A DNA stretch of 49,577 nt from a virus. Location: the IMG/VR virus record IMGVR_UViG_3300025141_000153, positions 1-49,577 of that record. One strand, written 5' to 3'. Below, piece after piece: positions 23,964 to 48,848 of this stretch (position 1 is the stretch's first letter; every line of letters starts with the position of its first letter). The notes under the pieces were generated by a model. That model worked only from the letters and a program-made list of their open reading frames with translations, searched no databases and was not told the origin of the DNA. A program made the position numbers and the translations under genes.

Positions 23964-26167
23964 TGGCATCTTTTATAGACTTATTTAGACAGCAAATGAA
24001 TTTAGAAGGTGAAGCGGAATCTCAGAGACATGGTTATGAGACGGATAAAATGCAAACTCAAGTAGCACAGATAAGTGGTATTACATCAACCTTAAGTAAT
24101 ATAATTTCAATGGGTTCTAAAATTAGTGATAAAGTTAAAGCAGGGAAAGAATTAGAAGAAGTTGCAGGATCAGTTGGAGCTGAAAAAATAGAAGGCACTG
24201 ATCAATGGACGTATAAAACAAAATCTGATAATGTTGTTGTTTTAAATGCGGCAGACATAAAAGAATATGCTAAAAAGGTGAAATTTGCAGATGTTGATTT
24301 TAATGTTGATTCTTTTTTTGAAGATAAAAGTGGTAATTTAAGAAAAGTATGGCAACCTAATATAACTAGTAAGAAAGATTATGAATTACATAAAAAAGCT
24401 ATAAAAATGCATTACCCTACAGATCAATCAGGCAATGAATGGGTAGAGAATATGGATATAGATGCATGGTCTGCTAAATTTGATGTAGATTGGGATGATG
24501 AACAATGGGGTGAATTCTTTAGTGATGAAATTGAGTTTAGAGATTCTGAAGCTGAAAAAGCGTATAAGATAAGGATGAAGCAGGCGGCTAAGGATAAAAT
24601 TGCTAAAATAAAACAGGAAGGTGAATTAGTGTATACAGAAGATGTTGACTTATATGGCGGAGCAACACTATCCAGTCTTCCTGAACAAACTCCTTATACC
24701 TCTTCTACATATATTGATGATGATGGGGAAGAAATTGAAGAGATGACTCTAGATTTAGATTTATTAAAGGAATTAGAAAAAGAGCATCCTGACTACTTAG
24801 AAGGCAAGGCTTTTAAAAACAAAGCTGAAGCAAGGGCATTTCAAAAAGACTATAAAAAGAGGGTAAAAACAGCTGATAGAGAGAGAGCAATATTAGAAGA
24901 AGAAGATAGTCATTTCTTTGATGAGGAGATAGCAGAAGCAGAAGAGTATAAAAAGAAGGTAAAAAGAGCTGACAAGGAGAGAAAAAGATTAGAGTTGGAA
25001 GATGAGAGTTTCTTTGATGAGGAGATAGCAGAAGCAGAAGCAGAAGAGAAAAGGTTAGATAAGGCTTATGATAAATTGCTGTCAGAAACAGATCATTTAG
25101 TAAGTGAGGAAGATATGGGGGAATATTATAGTGATTTGGATCAATTCGTCAAGACGTATGGTGGATCTATACATATGGGGGATAGGAGACCTTTAGCAGA
25201 ATATATTAAAGGGAGTAAGGAAAGACCATTTTTACAATCAGAAATGGATGAAAAGTTTAAGCAAGCTAAAGCTAGAAAAACAGCTCGAGAACAAGCTATT
25301 ATTGACGATGAAATGTGGAAAGATATAGATAGGGATGCAAATCCAGAGCTAGCTGAATTTTATGATCAACCTTTATTCAATCAAAAACAAGAGATTAAAC
25401 GTAGAAAGGAAGAAGGCCAACAGCAGTTCCAAGAAACTCAAATCTGGGATTCTATTGAAGCAGGTGAAGAAGATGCAAGAAAAGAAGATTTAATAAAGAG
25501 GTATGGGACAGATGATCCTGATGAGATAAGGGCTATAATACAGGAAGATTACGATATTGAGGAAGACCTTGTTGCTTATCCTGAAGCATTGGAAGCATTC
25601 TATAAATTGCCTTTAAAGGAACAAAAAAAAGAGATTAAGAAAAGAAAAAAAGAGGCAATGAAAGAGTATCTTGAAGGCGATATTCCAAAAGGAAGTAAAT
25701 ATAATCCTTATACAGCCGAAGAATTTGAAAAACTTGGGATGGGTAGTCAAAAAGCACCAGCTGATTTAGAAAGAGAACAATGGGAAACCGATAAAATGTG
25801 GGATGAAATAGATAAGGATATAAACCCAGAATTGCATGCCTTTAATAAGCTCTCAGATAAAAAGCAAGCAGAACAAATTGAGAAAAATAAATTAAAGGCT
25901 TATAGTGAGTTTTATTTTGGCCAGGAATATGATTTAGAAGGGTTTGAAGAAGTTAAAACTCTTTCTAAAGAAGAGAGAGAATTTCGAGAAAATAGAAATA
26001 AACAAAAAGTTTTAAGAGATATAAAACAAACTGAAAATTTTAAACAACTGGAAAATGAAATGATTGAAAAATATGGAGATATAGGTATAGATAAAATACA
26101 AAAAATCATTATGGAAGAAATGTATTTAGAGTTTCCTGACTTTAAAAATCTAGAGGAAGGGTATTAA
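23963..26167 (+). CDS. 734-residue charged coiled-coil virion protein with repeats
   Basis: Probable internal/ejected virion protein. It is dominated by Glu/Lys/Asp-rich helices. Two tandem 32-residue units occur at about 300-365 (each carrying FFDEEIAEAE, encoded by DNA copies 96 bases apart at 24913 and 25009). A second, dispersed repeat occurs at least three times, with unit cores DIDRDANPELAEFYDQPLFN, then AYPEALEAFYKLPLKEQKKE, and EIDKDINPELHAFNKLSDKK, each followed by basic helices. No catalytic motif is seen. Its start overlaps the previous gene by one base. It is the first of the giant-protein block. Confidence 0.6.
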   Translation: MASFIDLFRQQMNLEGEAESQRHGYETDKMQTQVAQISGITSTLSNIISMGSKISDKVKAGKELEEVAGSVGAEKIEGTDQWTYKTKSDNVVVLNAADIKEYAKKVKFADVDFNVDSFFEDKSGNLRKVWQPNITSKKDYELHKKAIKMHYPTDQSGNEWVENMDIDAWSAKFDVDWDDEQWGEFFSDEIEFRDSEAEKAYKIRMKQAAKDKIAKIKQEGELVYTEDVDLYGGATLSSLPEQTPYTSSTYIDDDGEEIEEMTLDLDLLKELEKEHPDYLEGKAFKNKAEARAFQKDYKKRVKTADRERAILEEEDSHFFDEEIAEAEEYKKKVKRADKERKRLELEDESFFDEEIAEAEAEEKRLDKAYDKLLSETDHLVSEEDMGEYYSDLDQFVKTYGGSIHMGDRRPLAEYIKGSKERPFLQSEMDEKFKQAKARKTAREQAIIDDEMWKDIDRDANPELAEFYDQPLFNQKQEIKRRKEEGQQQFQETQIWDSIEAGEEDARKEDLIKRYGTDDPDEIRAIIQEDYDIEEDLVAYPEALEAFYKLPLKEQKKEIKKRKKEAMKEYLEGDIPKGSKYNPYTAEEFEKLGMGSQKAPADLEREQWETDKMWDEIDKDINPELHAFNKLSDKKQAEQIEKNKLKAYSEFYFGQEYDLEGFEEVKTLSKEEREFRENRNKQKVLRDIKQTENFKQLENEMIEKYGDIGIDKIQKIIMEEMYLEFPDFKNLEEGY

Positions 26168-26168
26168 T

Positions 26169-26948
26169 ATGAAAAATATAATAAAAAAGCTATTAAACAA
26201 AAAGAACCCTAATAGGTATTTAGAAAATCATAATAGGCTATATAAATTACTAGCCGAATATGGTACTAATACAGATAACCATATATGGATTAGTTCAAAT
26301 AAAAAGGTAATGCATGTAACTAAAACTGAGTATAATATTCTCAGAAATGCTACTGATATGGGTTTAAAAAAGAATGCTGAAAAAGTAATCAAATTAATCG
26401 GTAGTAATGCTGCAACTGAAATAGGGAATAGATACGAACCTATGACAGCTGTTGCAATAACTTTAGCAATAATTGAAGGTTTAGGTTACATAGGTAAAAT
26501 AGGGTCTAAAACAGGGCATTATAGGGCTGAAAAATGGCATACTAGGGGTTTAATAAAAGCCTTTCCTAAAAAATATCAAAGTATGACTAGGCATGCTGAT
26601 AAAGATGCTGGAATAATGCATGAGCAATTTGAACAACAATTGCAAGGAATAACTGGAACTATTGGGTCTGGATATGATCAATTAGCAAAAGATTTAGGTC
26701 TTTTAACAAAAAAAGCAGGGACATTAAAAACTTCTACTGCAGATCAAATAAAGTCAGAAACACAGGATCAAATGCAAGAACAATTCAATATAGCGGCTAG
26801 TCAAGCTGGAGCTGGGTATAGTAATGAATTAGCGAAATATTCTATGAGTTTAGCAAATACGCGACAATCTCTAGATAATCAATTACAAACCTTGCAACAA
26901 AGATATAGAAAAGCGGCACGACATGATAGATGGTATGAAAATTTATAA
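26169..26948 (+). CDS. 259-residue internal virion protein candidate
   Basis: The N-terminus is basic (KKLLNKKNPNRYLENHNRLY); a weakly hydrophobic segment PMTAVAITLAIIEGLGYIGK (about residues 89-108) may contact membrane, followed by long amphipathic, Gln-rich helices (QLAKDLGLLTKKAGTLKTST then RQSLDNQLQTLQQRYRKAAR). This size, membrane-plus-coiled-coil layout and position before the very large proteins recalls T7 gp14-like ejected proteins, a comparison by analogy only. GAAGG lies before the ATG. Confidence 0.55.
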   Translation: MKNIIKKLLNKKNPNRYLENHNRLYKLLAEYGTNTDNHIWISSNKKVMHVTKTEYNILRNATDMGLKKNAEKVIKLIGSNAATEIGNRYEPMTAVAITLAIIEGLGYIGKIGSKTGHYRAEKWHTRGLIKAFPKKYQSMTRHADKDAGIMHEQFEQQLQGITGTIGSGYDQLAKDLGLLTKKAGTLKTSTADQIKSETQDQMQEQFNIAASQAGAGYSNELAKYSMSLANTRQSLDNQLQTLQQRYRKAARHDRWYENL

Positions 26949-26961
26949 ATAGGATATTGAT

Positions 26962-28266
26962 ATGACGAGTATAACAGAATATTTAGATTATTTACTAGAA
27001 AAAGATAGGTTAGCTTATGTAGAGGCTAAAAATAAGTTTGATCTTATAGATGCGCAAATCAAAGATGAGAAGGAGAAGGCATATAGGGAATCTCTTCTTT
27101 TAAAGACTGAAACAAAACAGCTCTATGTAAATGAACTAAATGAACTAGAGCAACAGGAAGATAATTTTTCTAAATTATATGGTTTAAAACCAGAATATAA
27201 GTCTTCTGGTGGAAAGCATTTATCCAATCTTTTGTTAGAAAATAAAGACATTGAAGTTGATACTTTACTTAATGCATTAAAAACAATTCAATCAAGGAGT
27301 CAACAGCTTAAAGAAGAAAGAGATAGTTTTAGAGGACAGGAATCAGAATTAAGAGCAATAATACAAAGTGATCCCGATGTATTTGATCCAAATGAATTTA
27401 ATATGTTTTTAGATAATAAAAAAAGTTCTTTAAGAGTAGGTAAAGATTTGATTGAAGGGACTAAAGATGATTTAACTGAAAAGCAAATAGAAAGAATGAT
27501 TACTGGATATAGGGTTGGTTATGAGGATTATACAAAAAATGCTATAAATACATTAAAATTATTAGCTGGGCAAGAAGAATATGCAGCAGGAAAAGGTAAA
27601 CCTTCGCAAAGTAATGCTATGTTGGCTTTAAATAGAGTAGCTTTAAATAGTAATACATTTTCAGGGTTTCAGAAATATATGGGACAAATCCAAAATTTGG
27701 CTATAATGAGAAATAATAATCCTGAGGAGTATATGCATGACGTTAATTATCAATCCTTAGAAAAAGATAATGAGAATTTGCAAATCAAAATAGGCTTAGA
27801 ATATGCTTCTTTGTTTAATGATAGTAATAAAGTTGGTAAAATAATAAATAATGCAGATAAGATCACCTCAGATCCTGAAAGCGAGTTTTCTAAAACAGCT
27901 CTTCAATTGTCAAATAAATATTTTGAACAATTTTATAATATTCATGCAGCAGCTAGTGGTAAAGCTGAAGCTCATAAGGGCGTTACTGCTAATCCTGATT
28001 ATGATAGATTTTTCTTTGATGTAAGGGATTCATATAATTACTACTTAACTTTAAATGATAAAGATAAGGGTAAGCATGAAATTTTATCAGCTAAGTATTT
28101 CGGCTATGATGCTAGAAGAATGGATTTTCCAAAATTCTTTGAAGTTATAAGCAAACAATATTCTACATATATAATGGATCCATTGTTTGATGATGGTATA
28201 ATAATACCCGATGATGATGATGATGATCCTGATAAGAATAAAAAGAATAAATATAATAAATATTAA
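26962..28266 (+). CDS. 434-residue coiled-coil virion protein
   Basis: Highly charged and helical throughout (EYLDYLLEKDRLAYVEAKNK; LNALKTIQSRSQQLKEERDS) with no signal peptide or membrane span. Its extreme C-terminus is polyaspartate then Lys/Asn rich (six aspartates encoded by a run of GAT codons near 28211-28226). I recognise no family. It sits in the block of presumed ejected proteins. Confidence 0.55.
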   Translation: MTSITEYLDYLLEKDRLAYVEAKNKFDLIDAQIKDEKEKAYRESLLLKTETKQLYVNELNELEQQEDNFSKLYGLKPEYKSSGGKHLSNLLLENKDIEVDTLLNALKTIQSRSQQLKEERDSFRGQESELRAIIQSDPDVFDPNEFNMFLDNKKSSLRVGKDLIEGTKDDLTEKQIERMITGYRVGYEDYTKNAINTLKLLAGQEEYAAGKGKPSQSNAMLALNRVALNSNTFSGFQKYMGQIQNLAIMRNNNPEEYMHDVNYQSLEKDNENLQIKIGLEYASLFNDSNKVGKIINNADKITSDPESEFSKTALQLSNKYFEQFYNIHAAASGKAEAHKGVTANPDYDRFFFDVRDSYNYYLTLNDKDKGKHEILSAKYFGYDARRMDFPKFFEVISKQYSTYIMDPLFDDGIIIPDDDDDDPDKNKKNKYNKY

Positions 28267-28268
28267 TA

Positions 28269-29762
28269 ATGATAGATCGATTAATAAAGGATATTACTGG
28301 AGATTTAGATTCTTTTGAAACATTTGAAGAAAAGGATGAATTTTTAAGGACTACTGATTTTGGTAATGGGAGAACTATACAAGATTTTTTCGATAATCCT
28401 GATTATGAAGGGTTAAAAGGTTATGTTCAGGGTTATATGTTTAATGCAGCTAAGGAAGAATTTGGTTCAACTGTTGAGGGATATAGTTTAGGTCCTGTTA
28501 GCGATGAAGATATTTTAGAAAATATTGAAAAAATAAATTTAAATACTGAGTTTTTACAGAAATACGATACAGCTACTTTAGAAAATATAAAAAAGGAATA
28601 CGAAGAACATAATAGACAATACCAAGAGTATAATTCAGAGATTGATCTTTTACAAGGTATAATTAAGTCAAAAGAGGAAGAATTCGATAAAGATGCAATA
28701 TATGGTGGAGCACTTATGCCTAAATATCCTTTGCAGATAAGTGAAGATCTTACAGATGCTCCTGAGTCGAGAGAATCTCCTACCTCAGGTTATGAATATA
28801 AAAAAAGGTATGATTTTGCTGGTCTTAGATACGCTGAAACTGGTAATTTTCTTACAGGCACTGAGGGTTTAATGAAGTGGTTGGAAAACTCAGGCCATAT
28901 AGATGAATCTGGAAATATTCAAGTTGATTCGGAACGTCTATTTGATCTAGAAGCAACTATTCCATTCCCAGAGAATATGGATTCTTTTAATAGATGGGTT
29001 TACACAGGAGATTGGGATGCTACTGAAACTTCGCCTGGTAAGCTTGAAATAGGTTTCGGGTCTACACATAATGTCCATGCTTCTAGTGAGGTTTTTGATC
29101 CTAATTACAGGAGAGAGCCTAAGGAATGGGAACAAATGTATTTAGATCCTGCTAGTCCTGATTATGATGAGAAAAGAGCAAACTTTATAGAAATGACAGA
29201 AGGGTATACGGTAGAAAATGGAATAGTTTCAGGACGTTTTGTAAGAGGTGTTACAGGATTTATGGATGGAAGAGATGAAGCGCCAGAAGATTTTCTTGCA
29301 AGGCGTGCTCATCCTCTTGGGGTTTTATCAACAGTAGGGACAACTTTTTATAAAACATTTGATTATCTTAATCCGCTTAGTTGGTATAATTGGATGATGG
29401 GAAGAGATGCGAATGTAGACTCAGATGCATTAAATATATGGGCAAAAGAGAGAAAGGCTACAGAATATAATGATAAACTTGGAATGAGTTGGTTGGAATA
29501 TTTTGATTTAGAAATAAAACCTTCTGTTGATAAACTTAATAATGTTTATATTGATAGAACTAATTTATCAAATTCATATAAAGATACATTCCATGAATAT
29601 GAAGAATGGGAAGATTTAGTTCAAGGAAATAAAGATAGATGGGAAACACTTAATACAACAGCTTTAGATGAGATACTTACTTCAGAAGCTTTTAGTGTAA
29701 ATGATAGATGGACTCAGGAAGATTATGAAGCATTTGAAAAACTTTTAAAAGGGGAAAAATAA
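28269..29762 (+). CDS. 497-residue acidic virion protein
   Basis: Unrecognised. Acidic, mainly helical N-terminus, with a central segment WYNWMMGRDANVDSDALNIW preceded by the moderately hydrophobic PLGVLSTVGTTFYKTFDYLN that could bind membrane. No SD precedes the ATG, which follows the previous stop by two bases, so translation is probably coupled. It ends immediately before the giant polymerase-like gene (no spacer). This pairing suggests a virion partner of that protein. Confidence 0.5.
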   Translation: MIDRLIKDITGDLDSFETFEEKDEFLRTTDFGNGRTIQDFFDNPDYEGLKGYVQGYMFNAAKEEFGSTVEGYSLGPVSDEDILENIEKINLNTEFLQKYDTATLENIKKEYEEHNRQYQEYNSEIDLLQGIIKSKEEEFDKDAIYGGALMPKYPLQISEDLTDAPESRESPTSGYEYKKRYDFAGLRYAETGNFLTGTEGLMKWLENSGHIDESGNIQVDSERLFDLEATIPFPENMDSFNRWVYTGDWDATETSPGKLEIGFGSTHNVHASSEVFDPNYRREPKEWEQMYLDPASPDYDEKRANFIEMTEGYTVENGIVSGRFVRGVTGFMDGRDEAPEDFLARRAHPLGVLSTVGTTFYKTFDYLNPLSWYNWMMGRDANVDSDALNIWAKERKATEYNDKLGMSWLEYFDLEIKPSVDKLNNVYIDRTNLSNSYKDTFHEYEEWEDLVQGNKDRWETLNTTALDEILTSEAFSVNDRWTQEDYEAFEKLLKGEK

Positions 29763-32700
29763 ATGGATGATTTATTACTCAAATCACTAGATTTATTAGA
29801 GGACGAAGAGCGTAATAGGAAGGTAGAGCAAATCCCAACAGGAACTACTGGTAGTGCAGTAGCAGATTTTTTCGGTAAAGCATTATGGGGAGCTGCTGAT
29901 GAACTAAGTTTTTCTACTTTAGGCGCATACGATATGTATCAAGAAGCAAAGAGAGGAGATGCTTATACATCTTGGCAAGACACACTATCTCTTTTTGAAG
30001 ACCTTGAGGATACTAAATGGCAGGATTTAACTGGATGGGGTAGAGCAGGAGAAGCTGTAGGTAGAACTGTTGGTATGCTTCCATCGTTTGGGGTTGGCTC
30101 ATTAGTAGGTAAGGGATTTTGGAAAGGAATAGGTAAAGTTGGTAGACTAGGTGCTAAAGTAGCCGCAAATCAATCTAAAAAAGAATTAAAGGATAAAGCT
30201 GCAAATATAGTTCTCAAGAAAGGTACTGAGAAAATTGCAGGGACTGGTATTGCTTTATCCGATGATGCTGCTCAAAAAATAATTTCTAAAGGCTATGAAT
30301 GGTTAAAAGATTCAGGCGATATGTTAAAAATAGAAGAAGGATTTAGAGGTGGTATATTTAAACAGGTAATATCATCGGGTATTGTTGATGATATATCTAA
30401 AATAACAAAATTGTCTACTAATGAAGCAAAACTGCTAGCTGATGAAGTAGTAGAAATTATTACAAAGAATGATCCTAATAATGCAAATGCTTTATTGAGT
30501 ATGCTTTTTAGAAAGATTCCTGGAACTTATGGTCCTGGTGGAGTAGTTGGTTCTCAGATGGCTGGTGCAGCGGCTCTTGATGCAACAATAGGTTTTGCTT
30601 TAGGTTCAATGCATGCTATAGCTGATCAGGTCAAAAAAACACAATTTGGAGTTGAGAAAAATCCATTAACCCATGAGTATGAGTATACAGGAGATAATAG
30701 ATTTAATTGGTCAGAAGCTTCAGCTGATTGGTGGAAACAAGCTTCAACTACAGGTTTACATTTTTCTGTTATAGGTCCTGTTAAATATTTTAGAGGAGGT
30801 ACTAGCGTTAATCCCCTAAAGAGAGGTGCATCAATTGTAAAACATTTAGCTAAGGGTAATAGACCTTTAAATAATATGACAACTGAGCAATTAAAAGCTA
30901 ATATAACTGCAATTAATGAATTATCTGGAGGATATGTTCATAGAAGTGTAAATAAGTGGAACAAGGATTTTGGGCGTTCAAAATTCCCTACTCATGATAA
31001 ATGGTGGTTAACTAGTGATAACAAAGAGTTGTTAAAATCATATTTATCAACAATGAGAAAGGATTTTAGTTGGAATGCGGTCCCTTATTGGGTAAAGGAA
31101 TCTGTATTTGATGTTGGAGCTTCTTTACCTAGGATGTTAGCTGGTGTAGCTGCTATGAATGGTTTCCATGTATGGGATAATATGAGTAAATATGGTTTTA
31201 GTAAAGATGTAATTTTAAATTCATTAGGTGAAACTCCTCATGAAAAAGTTACAACTATTGCTACAGCTATGTGGTTTACAAGAAAACCTCATAGATTACA
31301 TTATGATACTAAGAATCCTATAGCACAAAAAATATTCCAAACAGATCAAGTCCCCCAATATATGCAATTTAAGGAAATGAAATTAAGAAAGATTATGGCT
31401 AGTATGGAAGCTTTTGGTGTAAAGGATAATAATAAGCTTCATAATCTTATAATGGCTTATGGAAATCAATCTAGGTATTCTGATAATCATCAATATAACT
31501 CTGAATCTCGTTCTGCAATTAAAGGGCACTTATATAATACTGGAGAATTTGCAGCTCTAAGAGAAATATTCGATCCTTATAAAAATGTTAAAAATGATTT
31601 TGGTGGAACTGAATTAAGAACTGCTTTTAATAAGTGGATAGCTGATGCATTGAAAGATAAGAAGATAACTAGAGAACAAGCTCATCAATTAAATGAGCAG
31701 CTTTATGTAGCGGAAAGAGTATTAGATAAATATCATAAAAACTCTGGCGAAGAATTGGCAAAAGATACATATACTCCTGACCAAGCATATGATATTATTC
31801 AAAAGGTTTCAACAATGCAGTTTAAAGGAGAATCTTTAAATGTCAGGAATGTGGAACCTGTTTTACAGGACTTTATAGAAAAGTCTATTAGAGATGCAAG
31901 CCTGCCTCATACACAAATTATGGCAGATTATTTATTTAATACATTTAAGGCTCTAGGTTTAGATGTTGTTGACAGGAGAGATACTGAAGGTAAAATTCTT
32001 ATTCCAAATGTAGCGGATTTATTAGGCGGTTTATCACTAGGAGCAAGACAAACTTTAGCAACTGTTGTAAAAAGAGGTGTTCAAAATGGATGGATTAGAT
32101 TAATGGACTCTCCTCCAATGGAGCAACTTAATAAAATAACTAATAATAGGTTTCAGGAAGCTGAGATAGTGTTAAAGGAATCTATTGATGCAATGCATCG
32201 ATCTGTTTGGGGAGAAAAATGGGAAGGTAATAGGCATAGAGATGATATGATATTAGAAAATGATGCTTGGCATTTTGCTCAAAATGATGTCATAAAATTT
32301 CAAAGACATGTAAATGCTTTCGAGATATTAAAAAATGGCAAGGATCATGGACTTGATATAAATGAAGTAGGATTATTGCAAGACAAAGTTAATACTTTTA
32401 TAAGGCATAAAGAAGCTCCACAAGTCGGTAATCTTGAGGGAACTAGAGAAGTAGATTCTATTTCTCATGGCAAGGTTGATAACTTTATAAAAACCTTACA
32501 CAGAGTTGTGAAAGCTATAAACCCTGATATTACATCTGATCAAAAAGTTAATATGACCTATCAGCAAGCAAAGGGATTAATGGAAGCTTTTGTTGGTGTA
32601 GAAGGACAAAGCAGGGGATTGTTTGGAGATTTATTTACAAACAAGGAATCTTTAAGGGAATTTACAAGATTTGTACATTTAAAATCTATTGACAACTTAG

Positions 32701-35700
32701 GTATGAGAGATTTCCAGACTGGTATCGATACTAAGGCTAGTTTAACTACTTTGATTAGAGATATTGATTTTAATAAAGCTGAAGGTGAAGGAAGTATTGC
32801 AAAATTAATTAGTTATGAGCGTATAAAAGCAACCTTGGATCTTGAATTACAGACTAATAAAATCTCTGAAGACACTTATAACGATCTTATTAAACATTAC
32901 GAATATTTGCTAGCTGAGGTTAAAAATTCAAGCTTTCCTATTGAATTTTCAGAGATAGCTGAATCTACAGAAGGTGCTTATAGAAAGGCGCTTATAAAAT
33001 CCATGGCTATTGGGAAATCATCTTTGGATTTAGTCGCTAGGGATAAATCTAGAATTATGGAACAAGTTTTATTAACAGAAATAAATAGATTAGATCAAAT
33101 AATACATACTTATGAAATAGGTGGATTTAATATAGATACACCTAAAAGTAAGGATGGAAAAACTTGGGAGGTAGAATTACAGGAATATGTTGATGCAAGA
33201 GATAATAGTGTAAGATTAAAGGATATTATAAAAACAGCTTTAGACCATAAAGATCCTTACACTTTAAGTGCTGTTATGAGTCATATTGGAAGTATAGAAG
33301 GTGCTTTAGATGCTTTAAAAAGACAAGACCAATCTAATTATAGAATTAAATATGCGTCTGATATGGTTAAATTGGCTGAAACAATACAAGCTACTGTTCA
33401 AAGAAGAGCTATTAATGAATCTAATATTATGGACATGATTAGAGAGGAATTCGCAGCTTTTGATAGAGAGATTCCTGGAAAGGATATTCAAGACAAGGTT
33501 TTAAGAATAACTACTTCTCAATTTGCCTTGAAATATGGTGTTGATATTGGGACTGTTGAGTCTATATTTTCAATAGATAAAACTGCTACACAAAGTAAAA
33601 AAGATACAGAATTGTTTATAAGGGATTTAATTAGAGACATATATAATGATCATCAGGCTTTATCTAAAATAGACCCCAATCTTGTTAATAAATTAGAACT
33701 TATAAAGCAAACGCTATTAAATTCCCCAGATGCTATCACTTTTGACCCCAAGACACCTGAAGGTCTTGAAAATTTCAGAATATTTGTAGCAGAACCCTTG
33801 AAATTAGCTATGAGAACAGGTTTAGAAAAACTTGATCCTATAGATAGGCCTACTGATGCTGAGGTAGCTACAGATCATTATGTTATTACTACTAATTATT
33901 TTTCTAAAAGAGTTGTAAAAACTTTGAAACTTGATGCTAGAAGTGGCTCAGAAAGATTAGTGCAAGGGCATAGATATATGGGTGAAACAAAGGATAGAGG
34001 CTTGGGCGCTCTTTTAGAGTCGCTAGATCCTGACCAAAGTTTTATTTATTTAGCTGAATCATCAGGTATTAATTCTGATGGTAGGGTTATCCGTAATATT
34101 GCAGGTGAAAGAAATATAGATGGGTTAAATGCTTTATTAAATAGTGGTAAATTTACTGTTCGTAATAATAAAATAGTAGAAGAAATATACAGGTTTGGAG
34201 AAAGTGAGCAATTGACTGATCCAAGTTTACAGAATCCCACTATAGCTGGTGAAAGATTTAGAATAGTTCCTTTAAATGAATCCACTACATTGATTGTAAG
34301 GGTTGATAAAACATTTAATAAAAGTATACATAAGGAAATTCAATCTCAATTTAGGCCTAGAGTAGGAGCAGATAAGGGTGGTGATTTATTTAAAATTCTA
34401 GAAGCAGTATATGATGGAGACATGTCATTAGATACGCCGCAACATAGGGCTATGAACAACTTATTAACTAGATTAAGAAATGCTGATGCTGATTTAGATG
34501 TAGTAGAAGCTATTAAATTAGCTAGAATGATACACAATATGCCTGCATTTATTCCAGATGTATTGGAAAATGGGGTAATTAATCTTCAGCATGATGTGAT
34601 AAAAGATTTAAACAAGCGAGATAAATTAGCGGAAACTAAAAATGGGTATATACCAACAATTGAAAATAGAGCTAGAAGTGCCGATTTATATAAGAATAGT
34701 GAATCTGATTTTCATCAAAAGGCTTATGGGCTTCGTGTATTCGATTTATTCAATCAAGAGGTTTCATCTGTAAGAGATTGGTTTGAGCCTTCTAAAAAAC
34801 ATGGAAAAACTGGTTTAGAAGAATACAGAAAATTGAAAGTTCTTTCATTTGATGATGAAGGCAGTATTAGAGATCGTAATAATAATATTTTATTAGATAA
34901 AAGTGGTGCTGAATATGCAAATGTCTTTGATGCTTTGCATAGACATAGAGCAAAATTAGAGCAACAAAGAGTGGACAAGGATATAACTCCAGAAGAATAT
35001 ACTAAAAATTTAAAAATGTTTGAAGATGCTTATAAAAGTATCGTTGATGGTGAATTTTTCTTAACATTTGATGCCTATTTAGCTAAATTAATGATGGTAG
35101 GATTACATCCTGATATGGTAGAAACTAATAGTGCTGGAGAAATTATAGGTTTTAGATCAGGGGCACTAAAACCTACTGTAGCACAAGGCGATGTTAATAT
35201 AAACAGAAATAGTCCTGCATATGGTAGGATAGAACAATTTTTTGCAAAAACAGCTTTTAAATACAACCCTGTTGTTGAGGTAATTATGCGAGAATTAGGT
35301 GTTGATGGATTAACATTTGGATCTGCTAATAAAATAAATTCATATAAGTCTCAAATTGGTGCTGATAGAATAGAGCGTTATAGTACTTTAAGAGGTATAC
35401 AACGAGATAATTTAAAAGACTTAAATAAGCCTTGGACTGAACATATAACAAAAAATAATATTATAGAAAAACATATCATAGAGGTTCCTTTAGAATCAAT
35501 GAGCTTAAGGACTATATCTAAAGAACATGATCCTTTAGTAGGTCAAAATGCGGGATTACATATGAATCATAATAATGGGATAGCTGAATGGATTGGCTTA
35601 GATGCTAAATTAAAAAAATATAATAATAGCATGGAGAATCAATATAACAATATAGCGTATAGGAGTATTTTAGCAAATAAGATTTTAGGTTCTCGTGCTG

Positions 35701-38700
35701 CAGATGGGGATCCATCAGTTGTTAATAGCTCTATTGGATCAATACTATCTAGAGAAGGGTTGGTTTTAGAACCTTGGGCTCAAAGAAAACTAGAAGATAA
35801 TATGATTGGTTATTTTTTAAATAATGGTTCTATAGGCGGCGGTGTAGTAGAAAATGGTTCTTTGGATGTAATGGGTGCTGATATGGGTTATTTAAAACCT
35901 TCTGTGCATACTGAAATTAATGGCAGGAAAACTGTTAGATATTATGGCGAATTTTTGCCTTCACATTATGCTGCTTCAAAAGAATTTATTCAAAGAGGTC
36001 AAGATCCCAGGGAAGTGCATAGTGTTATAATTCAAAAAGTTGAATATCTAAATGAAGCAGGTATTAAAAGAAAAGCTGATGCTTATATAGTACAGATTAA
36101 TAAAGCTGATTTTGTTATAGTCGAAGGTAGAATGATAGATAAAAATGGTAAAATGTTTGATATTGATTCTAAGGAAGAAATTAAAATTGCAGATACAAAA
36201 ATTAATAAGGATCTATACGAGAGAATGGTATTTGCAGAAAAAAGTGCTTATGAAAGTATGGATAAATTTAAAAGTCCTGGGAATTTAGGGAAGATTTCTA
36301 TTAGTGATGCTGCGAGAATTCTTAAAAATATGCATCCAGAATTATCTGTAGGCTCTATTAATAGTCGGCAACCAAGAAACATGATGGGTGACTTAGTTAT
36401 TAGTAGAATTGCATTTAATAAAGATGGGAATCCTTATAATAATAAAAGAAGTGGTAATGTTAGTTTAATGAATTTTATGGATGCTATTAAACCGCAAGAT
36501 GCTGATTTTGATTTTGATAAATCCTTTAATTATATTGGAGCTCCAGGTAAATTTTGGGCACAAACTGGGAAATTAGCAGGAGAAATAGTTACTAAATCTT
36601 TTGATGCAACTATTATGAAAACATTTGGAGAAACTGGTTCTTATTCTAAATTAATTGCAGAACAAATAAAAGGTGATGCTGATTATACTGCTCTTCAAAA
36701 TGAGGTTACTATGGCTAGAGGTAGGTTTATAAAAATGCATCAAGTGTTAACATATATGTCTAATATTTTCAGAGAGTATCCTGAAATTCTGAAATTTAAA
36801 ATAAATACAGGAGATAAAGCAGGGCAATATCTTACTTTGAAATTGGGCGATAAAGGCCGTTATATCTCTACTGTTAAAAATGTTTCAGTAATGGCTGAAA
36901 AGTTTATAGATATGTATAAGAATATGCCATCGAAGGATTCTGTAAGAGCTATACAAAAACTTCAAAATACTATATTATTTGGGCCAGATGGAATGTTTGA
37001 AATAGGTATTGAAAGTGGTAAAAGAATTGATGGTAAATTACAATTTCCTGAATTTACAAAAGAACCTAACATAGATTTAAATGCACCTATGTATAGAGAA
37101 GTTAGGGATGCTATAAATAGAAGAATGATACTACCTTTAAATGAGTATGTAAGGCTTAATAGGGGATATGGTCAAGATGCTGCAGGTCAAGATGTATCAG
37201 CAAGATTACAAGATTACCATAATGCTTTTGATGCGTTGATTAGAAATATTACAAACGATCCTTTTGATAAAGTTTCTTCAAATGTTGAAATAAATGTAGG
37301 GTTGACATCCTTTAGAGATTATTTTGATATGAATACTGGTTCTAAAAATCCCTATGATGTTGCTATGAGGCAAATGCATTCGATATATCTAAACACTGTA
37401 GCTATTAAAGAAAAAAATAATATTGCAAATACTTCAAAGCAGACTCAAGAAATACTTGATTATATAGAAGGTGGTTATAAAAATGTTCCTGGTATGGAGA
37501 GTATGAGTAGTGAAGCAAGGCATAATAAAATATTTAATGATGCTTTGAATGAGTATGTTAAAGATGGTTGGAGGATGCTACGATTACAGGATTTAGTTAA
37601 ACAAGAGAAATCTTTAACTATGCAGATACAGCAAAAGGAAATTTTTGCATCTAGATCTAAGGAAGAAACCATTGAAGTTAGAGATATGAAAGAAAAATTA
37701 AGAAGAATACAGGATTTGAGAGTTGGGATGGAAGAGGCTTTAGCATATATGTTTAGCAAGGACATGGATGCTCCTGCCTTTGAAATAAAGAAAGTTAGGG
37801 ATGTTTTTTCTCCTGGTAAGTATATGCATAATAGTCAATTTTATGATAAACCTGTTGTAATAGTTGATAAAACAGGTAAAATTAAAGAAGTTATTCAAAC
37901 AGGTCAAAGAAATATTCAAACTATTTTCAAGACCGATAAAATGATTTTAAACGGCAGGAGATTTGAGGTTTCTGATGGTCAGCAACAACAAGGTTTAGCT
38001 ATATTATATAAAGCTTTTGCAGGCATGCCTCGTATAAGAATAAATGGTGAAATGAAAGAGTTGACTCATTATGAAATAAGAGAATATATTACAAAAGATT
38101 ATAATGACATGGTATCAGATATTATTAATGTAAGACCTAATAAGAGAACTTTAACAGCTGAAGATAGGGCTATGATATCATTGAAAGTTGAGACTCTATT
38201 ACATGAGCATATTTTTGGTACAGAGTTTGCACCTGTAGATGAATTAACAAGTAAGGCACTGGTTTTAAGGGCTTTAACGCCTGCTGTATCTAATGAAAAA
38301 GTTTCTATAAGGTCAAACAATGAGATGGCAGGAAAAGCAGCTGTATTTGATTATATTTATAGGGAAAATATGGTATCTGAAAAAGTGATGCAATTATTGG
38401 CAAAAATAGCATCTGGTGAAAGAAACGGAGATAGGCAGTTAGCAATAGATATTTTAAATGATGTTAATACTTTAAAAAATGTTGCATGGATATCCGAAAT
38501 CAATCCCGATGTTAATATAAAAGCTATACATTCTAAAATGATTACAGAGCCTATGAGTTTAGAGGGAAGATATACTACAGAAAAACATTTAAATCAAGAT
38601 ATTTATGCATTAAGAGATTCTAAAAATGAAATAGAAAGAGATGCAGCAAGAATTATGATTGATTATGCTCAAGGCAAGGGATTAGTTGATCCTGTTAGTT

Positions 38701-38933
38701 TGTATAAAGCCTCTAGGGTTATGGTAGAGAAGGGTATATCTGTTATAGATCAATGGGGAAGAATAAAATATCTCAGTAATGCTGATGGCAGTTTAAAAAA
38801 ATGGGGTGCCGATCAAATATTTATACGGGATGTAGATAGATTAAAGTCTAAAAATTTAGGCGAAAAAGCTGGAGTAGAACAGAGTACAAAAGAAAGAATT
38901 ATGAATGATTACGATTGTAATGCATTAAGATAA
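29763..38933 (+). CDS. giant virion protein, probable two-barrel RNA polymerase
   Basis: At 3056 residues this is the largest gene. Residues 2246-2253 read DADFDFDK. The DFDFD (2248-2252) matches the metal-binding DFDID of the giant virion RNA polymerase of crAss-like phages (phi14:2 gp66) and is related to NADFDGD of cellular RNAP beta-prime; it follows SRQPRNMMGDLVISR in the expected order. Upstream, GFRSGALKPTVAQGD (K1803) then VDGLTFGSANKI (K1857) and LVGQNAGLHM (about 1925-1934) resemble the second-barrel region with its conserved lysines. The N-terminus has Gly-rich amphipathic segments (TVGMLPSFGVGSLVGKGFWK) that might cross membrane during ejection; the rest is helical. Inferred role: injected polymerase that transcribes early genes. 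Family assignment is from motifs recalled, not searched. Confidence 0.72.
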   Translation: MDDLLLKSLDLLEDEERNRKVEQIPTGTTGSAVADFFGKALWGAADELSFSTLGAYDMYQEAKRGDAYTSWQDTLSLFEDLEDTKWQDLTGWGRAGEAVGRTVGMLPSFGVGSLVGKGFWKGIGKVGRLGAKVAANQSKKELKDKAANIVLKKGTEKIAGTGIALSDDAAQKIISKGYEWLKDSGDMLKIEEGFRGGIFKQVISSGIVDDISKITKLSTNEAKLLADEVVEIITKNDPNNANALLSMLFRKIPGTYGPGGVVGSQMAGAAALDATIGFALGSMHAIADQVKKTQFGVEKNPLTHEYEYTGDNRFNWSEASADWWKQASTTGLHFSVIGPVKYFRGGTSVNPLKRGASIVKHLAKGNRPLNNMTTEQLKANITAINELSGGYVHRSVNKWNKDFGRSKFPTHDKWWLTSDNKELLKSYLSTMRKDFSWNAVPYWVKESVFDVGASLPRMLAGVAAMNGFHVWDNMSKYGFSKDVILNSLGETPHEKVTTIATAMWFTRKPHRLHYDTKNPIAQKIFQTDQVPQYMQFKEMKLRKIMASMEAFGVKDNNKLHNLIMAYGNQSRYSDNHQYNSESRSAIKGHLYNTGEFAALREIFDPYKNVKNDFGGTELRTAFNKWIADALKDKKITREQAHQLNEQLYVAERVLDKYHKNSGEELAKDTYTPDQAYDIIQKVSTMQFKGESLNVRNVEPVLQDFIEKSIRDASLPHTQIMADYLFNTFKALGLDVVDRRDTEGKILIPNVADLLGGLSLGARQTLATVVKRGVQNGWIRLMDSPPMEQLNKITNNRFQEAEIVLKESIDAMHRSVWGEKWEGNRHRDDMILENDAWHFAQNDVIKFQRHVNAFEILKNGKDHGLDINEVGLLQDKVNTFIRHKEAPQVGNLEGTREVDSISHGKVDNFIKTLHRVVKAINPDITSDQKVNMTYQQAKGLMEAFVGVEGQSRGLFGDLFTNKESLREFTRFVHLKSIDNLGMRDFQTGIDTKASLTTLIRDIDFNKAEGEGSIAKLISYERIKATLDLELQTNKISEDTYNDLIKHYEYLLAEVKNSSFPIEFSEIAESTEGAYRKALIKSMAIGKSSLDLVARDKSRIMEQVLLTEINRLDQIIHTYEIGGFNIDTPKSKDGKTWEVELQEYVDARDNSVRLKDIIKTALDHKDPYTLSAVMSHIGSIEGALDALKRQDQSNYRIKYASDMVKLAETIQATVQRRAINESNIMDMIREEFAAFDREIPGKDIQDKVLRITTSQFALKYGVDIGTVESIFSIDKTATQSKKDTELFIRDLIRDIYNDHQALSKIDPNLVNKLELIKQTLLNSPDAITFDPKTPEGLENFRIFVAEPLKLAMRTGLEKLDPIDRPTDAEVATDHYVITTNYFSKRVVKTLKLDARSGSERLVQGHRYMGETKDRGLGALLESLDPDQSFIYLAESSGINSDGRVIRNIAGERNIDGLNALLNSGKFTVRNNKIVEEIYRFGESEQLTDPSLQNPTIAGERFRIVPLNESTTLIVRVDKTFNKSIHKEIQSQFRPRVGADKGGDLFKILEAVYDGDMSLDTPQHRAMNNLLTRLRNADADLDVVEAIKLARMIHNMPAFIPDVLENGVINLQHDVIKDLNKRDKLAETKNGYIPTIENRARSADLYKNSESDFHQKAYGLRVFDLFNQEVSSVRDWFEPSKKHGKTGLEEYRKLKVLSFDDEGSIRDRNNNILLDKSGAEYANVFDALHRHRAKLEQQRVDKDITPEEYTKNLKMFEDAYKSIVDGEFFLTFDAYLAKLMMVGLHPDMVETNSAGEIIGFRSGALKPTVAQGDVNINRNSPAYGRIEQFFAKTAFKYNPVVEVIMRELGVDGLTFGSANKINSYKSQIGADRIERYSTLRGIQRDNLKDLNKPWTEHITKNNIIEKHIIEVPLESMSLRTISKEHDPLVGQNAGLHMNHNNGIAEWIGLDAKLKKYNNSMENQYNNIAYRSILANKILGSRAADGDPSVVNSSIGSILSREGLVLEPWAQRKLEDNMIGYFLNNGSIGGGVVENGSLDVMGADMGYLKPSVHTEINGRKTVRYYGEFLPSHYAASKEFIQRGQDPREVHSVIIQKVEYLNEAGIKRKADAYIVQINKADFVIVEGRMIDKNGKMFDIDSKEEIKIADTKINKDLYERMVFAEKSAYESMDKFKSPGNLGKISISDAARILKNMHPELSVGSINSRQPRNMMGDLVISRIAFNKDGNPYNNKRSGNVSLMNFMDAIKPQDADFDFDKSFNYIGAPGKFWAQTGKLAGEIVTKSFDATIMKTFGETGSYSKLIAEQIKGDADYTALQNEVTMARGRFIKMHQVLTYMSNIFREYPEILKFKINTGDKAGQYLTLKLGDKGRYISTVKNVSVMAEKFIDMYKNMPSKDSVRAIQKLQNTILFGPDGMFEIGIESGKRIDGKLQFPEFTKEPNIDLNAPMYREVRDAINRRMILPLNEYVRLNRGYGQDAAGQDVSARLQDYHNAFDALIRNITNDPFDKVSSNVEINVGLTSFRDYFDMNTGSKNPYDVAMRQMHSIYLNTVAIKEKNNIANTSKQTQEILDYIEGGYKNVPGMESMSSEARHNKIFNDALNEYVKDGWRMLRLQDLVKQEKSLTMQIQQKEIFASRSKEETIEVRDMKEKLRRIQDLRVGMEEALAYMFSKDMDAPAFEIKKVRDVFSPGKYMHNSQFYDKPVVIVDKTGKIKEVIQTGQRNIQTIFKTDKMILNGRRFEVSDGQQQQGLAILYKAFAGMPRIRINGEMKELTHYEIREYITKDYNDMVSDIINVRPNKRTLTAEDRAMISLKVETLLHEHIFGTEFAPVDELTSKALVLRALTPAVSNEKVSIRSNNEMAGKAAVFDYIYRENMVSEKVMQLLAKIASGERNGDRQLAIDILNDVNTLKNVAWISEINPDVNIKAIHSKMITEPMSLEGRYTTEKHLNQDIYALRDSKNEIERDAARIMIDYAQGKGLVDPVSLYKASRVMVEKGISVIDQWGRIKYLSNADGSLKKWGADQIFIRDVDRLKSKNLGEKAGVEQSTKERIMNDYDCNALR

Positions 38934-38942
38934 GGAGTATTT

Positions 38943-41900
38943 ATGATAAGTAAATGGTTATGTAGTGTAGGGGCTATGAATAGGAAGAAAAGAGATGTTT
39001 CATTTAAACATAGACCTGAGATTGGTAAAAGAATGATTGAAATTGCCCAAGATTGGGAAAATGGTATTGGTATTAAAAATATAGCTGATTTAAAATACAA
39101 TAATTTTGAAACATTTAAATTTATATATGAAAGATACACAAGAAAACCATATGATAATCTTGAATTTCCTACAAATTTCGCTGACATAAGAAAATTTAAA
39201 ATGGGTATCAAGTATTTTAATAAATCTTTAGAAAAACCAAGAGGGTTTTTTGCTAGAAATTTTCATATACCTCAAACTACCTTACAGAAATTTCCAGAAA
39301 TGGCTAAATTTGAATGGGCTGTAAATCGAGAAAATTCATATTATAGAAGTTTCACTATTGAATCTACTAAAAGAACTAATGATATGCTGAGTACATTTAA
39401 GGAATTAGCAGGTTCATTTGGTAAAAAGATAAAAACATATACAGGTATAGGTAAGGATGGACTTACTGAATTCCAAAGACTGGAAAGAGAGTATGATACT
39501 ATAGTATCTCAAATAAAGAAAATAAAGGATGTCAATGATCCTAGATTAGATGTATTGGGCGATAAACTGAATGCTAATAGAGATCAGATAGTAAGATTTT
39601 ATGAAACAGGATCAGGGGAAGCTATTAAAATGATTAATAGTGTACTTTCAGGAGCAGATCCAGAATCTGTTACGACTTCAGATGGTAGACCTATTGCTAA
39701 TTCTCAGAAGATTTTATTAAATAGAATAAGAAAGGATTGGGTTGATGTTAGACGAATGTCTGTAAAAAGTTTAATAAGAGCCTTAGAAAAAATTGCTCAA
39801 AATGCTAAGAATAAAAATTTAACTTGGGCTGATGGTACTATTACACATATTAAAGGCCTGATAAAAGCAATAGAATTCCAAGAAACAAGGGATACTAGTG
39901 GAAGACTTATAGCATATAAGGACTTACAGCCTGTTAGAGATTTTATAGAATTAGGATTTGAGGGCAATCAAACAAGTAATAATAAAGTTGCTTTTTCTCC
40001 TCATTATATGGCTCATTATACATTGGGTCTTGTTAAAACTATAAAAAATTTAGAATATAGAATAGAAAATAGCGAATTAGATGTAGGTCAAAAATTACAA
40101 AGAGAATTAGGTGAATGGGATAATATTGTTAATATTGCAAAAGGTAGAAGTGAAATTATTAATCCAATGTATCATGCTGATCCATACTTCTTTTTAAAAA
40201 GGTATACTTCTGATGTTGCTCAATTTAATTATTCAACACATGTTAAAAGCACTTTAAATGATGCCGTTAATACAATAATTACTAGACATATTAATCCTGC
40301 AAAGCAAAAAGGTAGGGAGGATTTAGCCGAAGTTGGTTGGGATATGCTAAATGTAATGAAAGATGTTTATCGTGATATAAGAACTAATAAAGAAATTAAT
40401 ATAAAGGAAAACCATATAGATGATTTGTCTAGAATAATGACTTCATTTACGTATTTTCATTTAATGGGAGGAAATGCTAGATCTGCTGCAAGAAATTCTA
40501 CTCAAAGATTTTTAGAATGGGTTAATTTTGGATTCAAAGCTACTGTGTGGGATGCTAAGAGATTTTATTCAGAATCAGGTAAATCATCTTTAAATATCTC
40601 TGCATATGAAAGGCAAAGTAAACAATATGGATTACAATTGTATTCTGGGAAAACAATTAAACGTAGTTTATGGGAGTCTGTTATTGGAGAAAATACAAAA
40701 TTATCTGAAAGTAGTAGAGGAGCACTTGAAGATGCCTATATAGGTAATAAGGATTTATATATTAATGAAAAAGGTGAATTAACTACTAATGCAAACTGGA
40801 GATTTACTGCTGCTATTGCAGATAAGACTAGTAGAGCTGCACAAATAGCTGGGGGTCTTCATAGATTAGTAGAAGATTATAATAGAGCTAGAACTTATAA
40901 GGTTGCATTCGCATTAGCTTCGCAGAATTTAACTAATACTACAGATTCGTTTAAAATACGTCAGATATTAACTCAAGGTCAAAAAGAAAATATTCTATCA
41001 ATCAAAGGAAAAGATCATCAATTCAATAGAGAAGATTTAGTAGATATTCATGGCGAAAAGACTGATAAAGTAATTGATAATTGGGTAGAAAAAAAAGCAG
41101 GTCAAATAGCTTATAATGGAACCCTAGATGTTCATTTTGAATACGCTAAATGGAATAAAGCTAATGCTATTAAAGCAACAGATGATGACGGAAGAGCTGT
41201 AGCTTTTGTTAAAGTAGGATTAGGCCAATTTTCACATTATAGATTTAATATGATAAGATTAATGCATAGATGGATAGGAGAGGGTTTGATTTCTGCAAGA
41301 GCTTTAGACTTTACTAGTCCAGAAGTTGGAAGACCTTTGAAATATGGAATGTTACAAGCAGCTATATGGACAGCTACTATGAGTTTTAATACAAATTTCA
41401 GGAAATTAATGCCTAATGAATTAGGTGATTATGGTGAAGCTATGTGGACTTGGATGTCATCAAATAGAGAAAGATTAGTAAATGCAGAAAATGGAGAATG
41501 GTTAGGAGATTTAAGTCCTGAAACTCAAAAATTACTTAATAAAAAAACTTATGGACAAGGAGGATGGTATTTTCTTGGTCCTAATATAGGTATAGGTTTA
41601 GATGCATATGAACTATTTGCACATTATACTGGGTTTAAAAATCTAACTAATGGCTCTAAAGATCCTACGGCTTCCATGGTATTTGAAAAAAGTTTAAATG
41701 AATCTAATATTAAAGATGAAAGGGTAGAGACATATAATAAATTAGCTTGGTTGAATCATCAAGTAGCAAGAAGTGTTGCTTATACTTGGCCTTTAATGAC
41801 AAATTCAAATGCAGATCTTACTACTATTGCTAAATTTGAACTTGGTTTGTTTATGGATCCTCAAAGCAAAGAAACTGCAAAATGGTGGAGAGGTGAAGTT

Positions 41901-42005
41901 TTAGGATGGGGAAAAAAGAAGAGACATGGTAAGAAAAAATTAATAAAAAAGACTACCCCTGAATACGATAAAGATGCTATATTACGTTCATTAACAAGGT
42001 TTTAA
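38943..42005 (+). CDS. 1020-residue large virion protein, probable ejected partner
   Basis: No enzyme motif is recognised. Largely helical and charged, beginning MISKWLCSVGAMNRKKRDVS. Near residue 509 is GGNARSAARNSTQRFLEWVN, a pattern of 'SA-x-RN-x-TQ' that I associate with very large phage virion proteins of this kind. The C-terminus is rich in basic and aromatic residues (KWWRGEVLGWGKKKRHGKKK). AAGGAG precedes the ATG. Position directly after the polymerase-like giant suggests it is packaged with it, as in crAss-like phages where several such giants lie together. Confidence 0.55.
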   Translation: MISKWLCSVGAMNRKKRDVSFKHRPEIGKRMIEIAQDWENGIGIKNIADLKYNNFETFKFIYERYTRKPYDNLEFPTNFADIRKFKMGIKYFNKSLEKPRGFFARNFHIPQTTLQKFPEMAKFEWAVNRENSYYRSFTIESTKRTNDMLSTFKELAGSFGKKIKTYTGIGKDGLTEFQRLEREYDTIVSQIKKIKDVNDPRLDVLGDKLNANRDQIVRFYETGSGEAIKMINSVLSGADPESVTTSDGRPIANSQKILLNRIRKDWVDVRRMSVKSLIRALEKIAQNAKNKNLTWADGTITHIKGLIKAIEFQETRDTSGRLIAYKDLQPVRDFIELGFEGNQTSNNKVAFSPHYMAHYTLGLVKTIKNLEYRIENSELDVGQKLQRELGEWDNIVNIAKGRSEIINPMYHADPYFFLKRYTSDVAQFNYSTHVKSTLNDAVNTIITRHINPAKQKGREDLAEVGWDMLNVMKDVYRDIRTNKEINIKENHIDDLSRIMTSFTYFHLMGGNARSAARNSTQRFLEWVNFGFKATVWDAKRFYSESGKSSLNISAYERQSKQYGLQLYSGKTIKRSLWESVIGENTKLSESSRGALEDAYIGNKDLYINEKGELTTNANWRFTAAIADKTSRAAQIAGGLHRLVEDYNRARTYKVAFALASQNLTNTTDSFKIRQILTQGQKENILSIKGKDHQFNREDLVDIHGEKTDKVIDNWVEKKAGQIAYNGTLDVHFEYAKWNKANAIKATDDDGRAVAFVKVGLGQFSHYRFNMIRLMHRWIGEGLISARALDFTSPEVGRPLKYGMLQAAIWTATMSFNTNFRKLMPNELGDYGEAMWTWMSSNRERLVNAENGEWLGDLSPETQKLLNKKTYGQGGWYFLGPNIGIGLDAYELFAHYTGFKNLTNGSKDPTASMVFEKSLNESNIKDERVETYNKLAWLNHQVARSVAYTWPLMTNSNADLTTIAKFELGLFMDPQSKETAKWWRGEVLGWGKKKRHGKKKLIKKTTPEYDKDAILRSLTRF

Positions 42006-42008
42006 TTT

Positions 42009-42683
42009 ATGATAAAGGAGTTTCCTAGTTTCCTAACTTCAAAAGAAGTTGATAAAGTAGTTAGAATGTTTGATCATTTAGATCCCAAGGATGGAAAAGA
42101 AACTGCTGGATTATTTATTAAAGATTTAAAAAAAAGCATTATATATAAAGTTCCTAAAGAACTCTTTCCTATTATATTTCCCAAGCATACTCCTAATACA
42201 TTAGTACCTTTTCTAGGTCCTTATTTTGGAATAAGGACATGTCGATTAAGTATTTATAATAATAAAGATAAATATGATTGGCATGTTGATTCTAGTGCTG
42301 CAGACAATAATCCAGGAAATGTTTCTTATACACTTTTTTTAAATAATCCAAGTTCTTATAGTGGGGGATATTTGGAAATAGAAACTGAACTTGGAAATAA
42401 GTCTTTTAAATGTAAAAAAGGGACATTATTAATATATCCCTCAAATTGTCTTCATAGGGTTACAGAGATTACAAAAGGAAAAAGAAAAGTATCCTTAGGA
42501 TGGATACATAGTAAAATAAAAAGAGCTGAAAATAGGTTTTTATACAATAAACTATATAATGTGACTGCTAATGTGACTGATTTATATGAATCTTTAGAAG
42601 ATTGCAAGGAAAAAACTAAGCTAAGAAAAGATATCGATGATTTGATTTTAATAAAACTTCGATTAATAGAATTATTCAAGTAA
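42009..42683 (+). CDS. PKHD-type 2-oxoglutarate/Fe(II) dioxygenase
   Basis: Non-haem iron oxygenase that should hydroxylate a protein, peptide or small molecule using 2-oxoglutarate. Key residues of the double-stranded beta helix are intact: Y89-D-W-H92-V-D94, a GGYLEIE strand (119-125), GTLLIYPSNCLHRV with H149, and GKRKVSLGWIH with R159. This set, including W-H-x-D and the SLGWI end, matches PiuC/PKHD proteins. The C-terminal 60 residues are helical as in that family. At 224 residues it is full length. It is the last gene of the late operon, with only a weak SD. Substrate unknown. Confidence 0.9.
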   Translation: MIKEFPSFLTSKEVDKVVRMFDHLDPKDGKETAGLFIKDLKKSIIYKVPKELFPIIFPKHTPNTLVPFLGPYFGIRTCRLSIYNNKDKYDWHVDSSAADNNPGNVSYTLFLNNPSSYSGGYLEIETELGNKSFKCKKGTLLIYPSNCLHRVTEITKGKRKVSLGWIHSKIKRAENRFLYNKLYNVTANVTDLYESLEDCKEKTKLRKDIDDLILIKLRLIELFK

Positions 42684-48513: not shown

Positions 48514-48848
48514 TAATTTCTCCTATTTGTGGGGGTTATAATTTACTAAAAGCGGACAAACTTTCCAAGTTATTAAGAGGGTGGTGTAACAGTTAATTTT
48601 ATGTTACTTTGTGGCTGCCAATTTAATGACTGATGCATCACCTAGACTCTCACCCTCTTAAAGTTATTAATGTAGTCAATGCAACTGTAACCCTAAATCG
48701 GCTGGGCTTATTAAGGAAGCAGGTCCAACACGTTGCTTTTAGTTAGATGTCAGGATATCCACGCTACACTACTCCCTTTAGCTTAGTTAATACAGCGCCA
48801 TACAGGTTCTCTTAGAGATCGGCTGCAGCGACTCCGTGACTGACATGA
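48514..48848 (-). ncRNA. 335-base noncoding region with two large structured domains
   Basis: No gene is visible. In minus orientation the first domain is closed by TTAATGTAGTCA (48857-48846), which overlaps the last codons of the upstream gene, paired over 12 bp with TGACTACATTAA (48678-48667). Inside it TGTCAG (48845-48840) pairs with CTGACA (48753-48748), directly stacked, and AAGCA/TGCTT (48738-48734 with 48721-48717) forms another stem. The second domain is closed by TTAAGAGGGTG/CACCCTCTTAA (48661-48651 with 48583-48573) with GTAACA/TGTTAC inside (48607-48602 with 48591-48586). Then 59 bases of leader follow to the ERF gene. Confidence 0.6.

Follow-up and report, generated by a model that had tools for sequence, protein, structure and literature searches.

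A giant predicted two-barrel RNA polymerase and its downstream neighbour in uncultured phages, each with a single terminal cysteine

RNA polymerases built on two barrels, virion enzymes among them, are already known from phages (PMC7886860, PMC10770324). The example that most resembles the protein discussed here is phi14:2 gp66, a single chain of giant size that is encoded among virion and cargo genes, carries terminal cysteines and possesses a first barrel with alignable lysines (K1012, K1027, K1065) and a second barrel with the sequence DFDID (1361). The gp66 of the literature is the protein with locus tag gp077 in KC821624, PDB entry 6VR4. Single-chain two-barrel cores are also seen in QDE-1 and plant RDR2, which are cellular RNA-silencing enzymes with a DbDGD signature and no virion context. 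Thermus phage P23-45 has two such polymerases, gp96 and gp64, of which gp96, a giant polypeptide of the virion, has no internal cysteines; unlike the protein described below, it is fused to the tail tape measure of a long-tailed phage and has DFDGD at residue 779. N4 gp50 (Schitoviridae) offers a different comparison, being an ejected, cysteine-depleted podovirus protein of ~3500 amino acids whose T7-type fold is unrelated.

The window analysed is the whole of IMG/VR record IMGVR_UViG_3300025141_000153 (49,577 bases), in which a single ORF at 29763-38933 on the plus strand encodes a protein of 3056 amino acids, here called the giant. It shares with gp66 the single chain, the great size, the setting among virion genes, the lysines and the aspartate motif, but there is no BLAST-level similarity between the two, gp66 is much shorter (2180 amino acids) and the giant has additional large regions (1-1500 and 2700-3050) that find no profile match to the crAss proteins tested. 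The phages differ also, gp66 coming from a genome of ~100 kb and the giant family from genomes of ~50-60 kb. The features referred to below are as follows, all on the plus strand.

23963-26167, plus strand: 734-amino acid ORF without cysteine, probable internal virion/ejection protein
26169-26948, plus strand: 259-amino acid ORF without cysteine, probable internal virion/ejection protein
26962-28266, plus strand: 434-amino acid ORF without cysteine, probable internal virion/ejection protein
28269-29762, plus strand: 497-amino acid ORF without cysteine, probable internal virion/ejection protein
29763-38933, plus strand: the giant, a predicted single-chain two-barrel RNA polymerase whose only cysteine is C3052
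34935-36797, plus strand: polymerase core, residues 1725-2345, with both predicted barrels (pLDDT 88.9, pTM 0.86)
35055-35357, plus strand: conserved block of the predicted first barrel (DPBB-B-like), residues 1765-1865, with K1803, K1829, D1848, S1854 and K1857
36348-36587, plus strand: conserved block of the predicted second barrel (DPBB-A-like), residues 2196-2275, with RQP..., P2204, D2210, N2237, D2240 and DFDFD
36504-36518, plus strand: DFDFD at residues 2248-2252, the predicted metal-binding triad, kept in 47/47 relatives
36684-36770, plus strand: tentative candidate bridge helix, a long helix at residues 2308-2336, proposed from order and length only
38916-38918, plus strand: codon of C3052, the fifth residue from the giant's C-terminus
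38943-42005, plus strand: the partner, 1020 amino acids, directly 3' of the giant in all relatives examined, only cysteine C7
38961-38963, plus strand: codon of C7 of the partner

The initial annotation of this DNA drew attention to the sequence DADFDFDK, which is indeed present at residues 2246-2253 (nt 36498-36521), and took it as the signature of a giant two-barrel polymerase. On its own, a bare DxDxD in the giant is weak evidence, being close to what chance would supply: the pattern occurs three times in the giant, and shuffling its sequence 2000 times gave a mean of 1.2. This does not hold for the longer form, with D[FY]D.D arising on average 0.07 times and D[FY]D.DK 0.006 times per shuffled giant. 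What decides the matter is the conservation of the motif across relatives.

Neither the giant nor a profile built from its relatives found anything relevant by sequence in Pfam, PHROGs or the PDB, and the giant and two distant relatives, used as queries in DNA and tblastn searches of the phage collection, matched nothing there. Relatives were reached instead through the large terminase (TerL), a search of IMG/VR with which identified more than 600 relatives, followed by two further scans with subgroup alignments. A giant of 2781-3213 amino acids with DxDxD in the same place was found first in 15 TerL-matched records and then in ~50 distinct loci. In the records reached through TerL the ORF measures 2781-3160 amino acids and the equivalent site reads DFDFD, DYDFD, DFDLD, DYDVD, DFDTD, DNDGD or DHDGD. 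In an alignment of 47 sequences, in which pairwise identity across the core has a median of only 18.6% and a minimum of 11%, D2248, D2250, D2252, D2240, P2204 and D2383 are kept in 47/47, K1803, K1829 and K1857 in 46/46 and N2237 in 46/47. What selection has preserved is the three aspartates and the lysines, not long tracts of the protein. In the same pairs of records the core (window positions 34830-36752) is 14-49% identical whilst the terminase (3588-5141) is 77-94% identical, so that divergence or exchange of the polymerase greatly outpaces that of the packaging gene. The giant is the rule in a large group of uncultured phages with genomes of ~50-60 kb, rather than one odd protein. The group is not filed as Crassvirales. 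The best TerL matches among those listed are to other phages at 24-27% identity, and neither the giant nor the major head protein has a match in the phage collection, crAss phages included. A relative on a MAG contig from a genome collection also has the motif, as DNDMD, and a record of twice the usual size (IMGVR_UViG_3300030451_002683, 104,488 bases) encodes a divergent family member with DYDVD and terminal cysteines as in the others.

An hhalign comparison links the giant family to a profile of crAss polymerase cores, made from phi14:2 gp66 and six crAss-like relatives. The first-barrel region matches the crAss polymerases with an E-value of 2.9e-6 and a probability of 88% (1141-amino acid run, a single pairwise comparison), and the second barrel is a separate, colinear match with an E-value of 2.8e-3 in a 731-amino acid run, or 7e-4 for the region alone, though at a weak probability of 11-26%. 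A reversed-profile control gave an E-value of 0.71. The DxDxD of the family falls in register with the crAss DFDID, K1803, K1829 and K1857 align with gp66 K1012, K1027 and K1065, and the order of the barrels, first before second in one chain, is the same. The N-terminal, middle and C-terminal parts of the giant gave nothing against the same crAss profile, and hhalign detected no similarity of the partner, or of the remaining parts of the giant, to the crAss neighbours gp076 and gp078. These alignments also revise one detail of the initial annotation, which had placed the segments GFRSGALKP (from residue 1796) and VDGLTFGSANK (from residue 1847) in the second barrel: they are indeed active-centre segments, but of the first, beta-like barrel (DPBB-B), where they match the lysine region of gp66.

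The predicted structure tells a similar story. An AlphaFold2 model of residues 1560-2700, built with the family alignment, has a pLDDT of 83.5 (86-97 around the motif) and a pTM of 0.80. When compared by Foldseek with 350,542 PDB chains, its only significant match is 6VR4_A, the phi14:2 virion RNA polymerase (E-value 4.0e-8, prob 1.00). Below it come fifteen matches with insignificant E-values, nearly all of them to the largest RNA polymerase subunit of cells or poxviruses. The core alone (residues 1725-2345; modelled at pLDDT 88.9, pTM 0.86) matches 6VR4 first (3.1e-5), followed by QDE-1 (1.5e-3, probability 0.99) and maize RDR2, these RNA-silencing enzymes occupying the second to eleventh places, and then Pol I/II, ASFV, phiKZ and bacterial polymerase subunits; the 50 best rows listed are all two-barrel polymerases. 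P23-45 gp96 and gp64 are absent from the significant structure matches. A search of a viral structure library returned giant proteins at the top and crAss-like proteins after them. Some core matches in the PDB span 61-80 columns at 1.7-3.3 Å rmsd. TM-scores to 6VR4 are nevertheless low (0.26 and 0.36, query-normalised) and the rmsd is large, indicating that the arrangement of domains, or the insertions, differ from those of 6VR4; the significance of the structural match thus derives from the Foldseek E-values and from how consistently two-barrel polymerases are ranked. The long helix at residues 2308-2336 comes after the second barrel in the secondary structure of the AlphaFold model. Two other identities were considered and rejected: an N4-type polymerase, the matches listed in the core structure search being two-barrel enzymes only, and a protease or transglycosylase, which has neither structural nor family support.

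Gene order around the giant is kept in the relatives, with late genes followed by the giant, a partner of ~900-1050 amino acids directly downstream and then convergent replication genes, which in the window encode a DnaB-like helicase-primase, an ERF protein and a DUF932 protein. Within the late virion block the giant is the penultimate gene, with a small oxygenase-like gene coming after the partner. The partner itself has a weak match to a PHROG annotated as internal head protein (E-value 0.005), whilst the four ORFs upstream of the giant, listed above, are assigned as probable internal virion or ejection proteins from their position and absence of cysteine. The giant's place at the close of the late structural operon, after four ORFs that lack cysteine, makes it most likely that the protein is packaged and ejected. 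Other assignments in the initial annotation fared variously: the P22-like portal was confirmed (Pfam P22_portal, 1.5e-56), as was DUF2589 (6352-6900, Pfam 1.8e-33), but the supposed M15 endolysin at 5949-6362 has no Pfam match at E<=0.001.

Conservation, profile comparison and structure search agree in pointing to a two-barrel RNA polymerase, as the initial annotation had proposed, with gp66 (6VR4) as the best match. By fold and homology, the giant is, with high confidence, a two-double-psi-barrel RNA polymerase. A large structural protein of ordinary kind that has DFDFD by chance might be argued for from the three overlapping DxDxD words (1.2 expected) and the blank Pfam, PHROG and PDB sequence searches, yet it is contradicted by the conservation, profile and fold results and is barely credible. 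The fold might be present in a catalytically dead protein that is ejected for a structural or DNA-binding role only, and there is some precedent for this in that several large crAss-like cargo proteins are polymerase-associated without being the catalytic chain (PMC10172136). It is hard, however, to explain without catalysis why three aspartates and three lysines should be invariant in 46-47 relatives whose median identity is ~19%, and we regard a dead enzyme as very improbable. Somewhat less remote, but still unlikely, is a polymerase synthesised once infection has begun and working in the cell without ever entering the virion, as P23-45 gp64 does; two-barrel phage polymerases of both kinds exist (PMC10770324). 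Against this stand the penultimate position of the gene in a late structural operon, beside cysteine-free ORFs, in the relatives as well, the similar placing of virion polymerase genes among cargo or ejection genes in phi14:2, crAss001 and N4, and the cysteine depletion that the giant shares with the injected proteins N4 gp50 and P23-45 gp96. Gene position and analogy thus favour a virion polymerase: the giant is probably packaged in the virion and would be injected into the host.

In the most likely scheme, the capsid stores the giant, which is ejected together with the DNA or ahead of it and refolds in the cytosol. The first barrel would supply K1803, K1829 and K1857, and the second D2248, D2250 and D2252 for metal binding. 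Its catalytic activity would presumably be directed at the convergent early genes on the minus strand (42.8-49.5 kb). Repeats in the early region revealed no convincing promoter motif. PolA was not found in 27 records of the group; nor was a T7-type RNAP (PF00940), a result that is uninformative since the control set also lacks PF00940.

The second unusual property of the giant is its cysteine content. It has a single cysteine, C3052, where ~15 would be expected from a background of 5.0 per 1000 residues in other long ORFs of these loci. Exactly one cysteine, always within the last 11 residues, is seen in 50/50 distinct giants with a complete C-terminus (39 are full length, some of the others being cut at the N-terminus by the contig end), and 47/47 partners (a few are cut at the C-terminus) likewise have exactly one, which lies at residues 3-8 when numbered from the closest upstream methionine; these are related rather than independent sequences, yet deeply diverged. 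One giant and three partners seem to have additional cysteines, but these fall before the start methionine, in stop-to-stop frames. The termini are otherwise dissimilar.

A similar distribution is found in crAss-like phages, there over three chains. In phi14:2 the cysteines are C1797 alone (the last residue) in gp078, C3 and C2179 of 2180 alone in the polymerase gp077, and C3 alone in gp076. In crAss001, gp47 has only C2339 of 2341, gp50 has C5, C1334 and C2404 of 2412, and gp49 only C5, whilst the corresponding chains of cr85_1 have C2515 of 2518, C3...C2401 (the last residue) and C5; DAC15 and cr111_1 agree with the pattern where their cysteines are seen. In Fpv2 (4401 amino acids) and cr50_1 (4774 amino acids) the polymerase chain is much longer and lacks the N-terminal cysteine, but retains that at the C-terminus, as its neighbour retains C3, which is as expected if the upstream chain had been fused to the polymerase. 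The fit is not perfect: crAss002 conforms in part only (gp32 has C2019 of 2020, but gp33 is without cysteine before residue 35) and several crAss phages have internal polymerase cysteines. N4 gp50, gp51 and gp52 and P23-45 gp96 have no cysteine at all.

How might this be explained? We propose that the giant's C-terminal cysteine would form a disulfide with the partner's N-terminal cysteine, so that the linked chains would pass through the tail in order, as one thread, until the reducing host cytosol cut the bond, separated the chains and released active polymerase; removal of cysteines elsewhere would prevent wrong bridges. Phage assembly takes place in reducing cytoplasm, so the proposed bond could arise only at a late stage or extracellularly. 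Stated generally, phages with several giant chains may string them head to tail by terminal-cysteine disulfides, with other cysteines purged and the disulfides taking the place of gene fusion, a proposal to which we would give an even chance. On this disulfide reading the uncultured group would be the two-chain version and crAss-like phages the three-chain version; gp66 has an additional N-terminal cysteine. No mention of terminal cysteine links was found in the open-licence papers searched. The cargo of crAss001 is probably in part unfolded when it is extruded (PMC10172136).

It is quite possible, on the other hand, that the terminal cysteines serve another role, in homodimers, in anchoring to another virion protein or as the by-product of a nucleic-acid signal at the gene junction. 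Other virion disulfides are known in crAss001 (PMC10172136) and the bond between giant and partner is a proposal drawn from sequence. The arrangement in phi14:2, where the first chain has a cysteine at the C-terminus only, the middle chain at both ends and the last at the N-terminus only, is what a linear chain needs. In addition, crAss001 gp47 and cr85 gp056 keep their C-terminal cysteine despite lying on the opposite strand from the polymerase, making a gene-junction signal an unlikely cause.

The giants form a new and deeply divergent branch within a known class of polymerase, although some members may already stand in the survey of PMC10770324. The family has no Pfam or PHROG models and no cultured relatives, and the giants of this group are described by no protein-family library searched. 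With these findings, two-barrel RNA polymerases of the virion type would be known not just from P23-45 and the crAss-like phages but also from a large uncultured group, whose giants lie structurally close to the polymerases connecting phage enzymes with those of RNA interference. The terminal-cysteine pattern, in turn, suggests how very large multi-chain cargo might thread a narrow tail in order.

Three further observations concern the remainder of the window. At 48514-48860 on the minus strand, an intergenic stretch of ~335 bases lies between a 12-base complementary pair (TTTAATGTAGTCA and TGACTACATTAA) and is followed by a GC-rich hairpin; the interval has no Rfam match and folds no better than shuffled sequences. 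The gene encoding the DUF2589 protein is followed by a second ORF, the two together occupying 6352-7339. Finally, the gene directly after the partner (42009-42683), which is the last on the late strand, encodes a 2OG-Fe(II) oxygenase-like protein (Pfam 2.2e-13).
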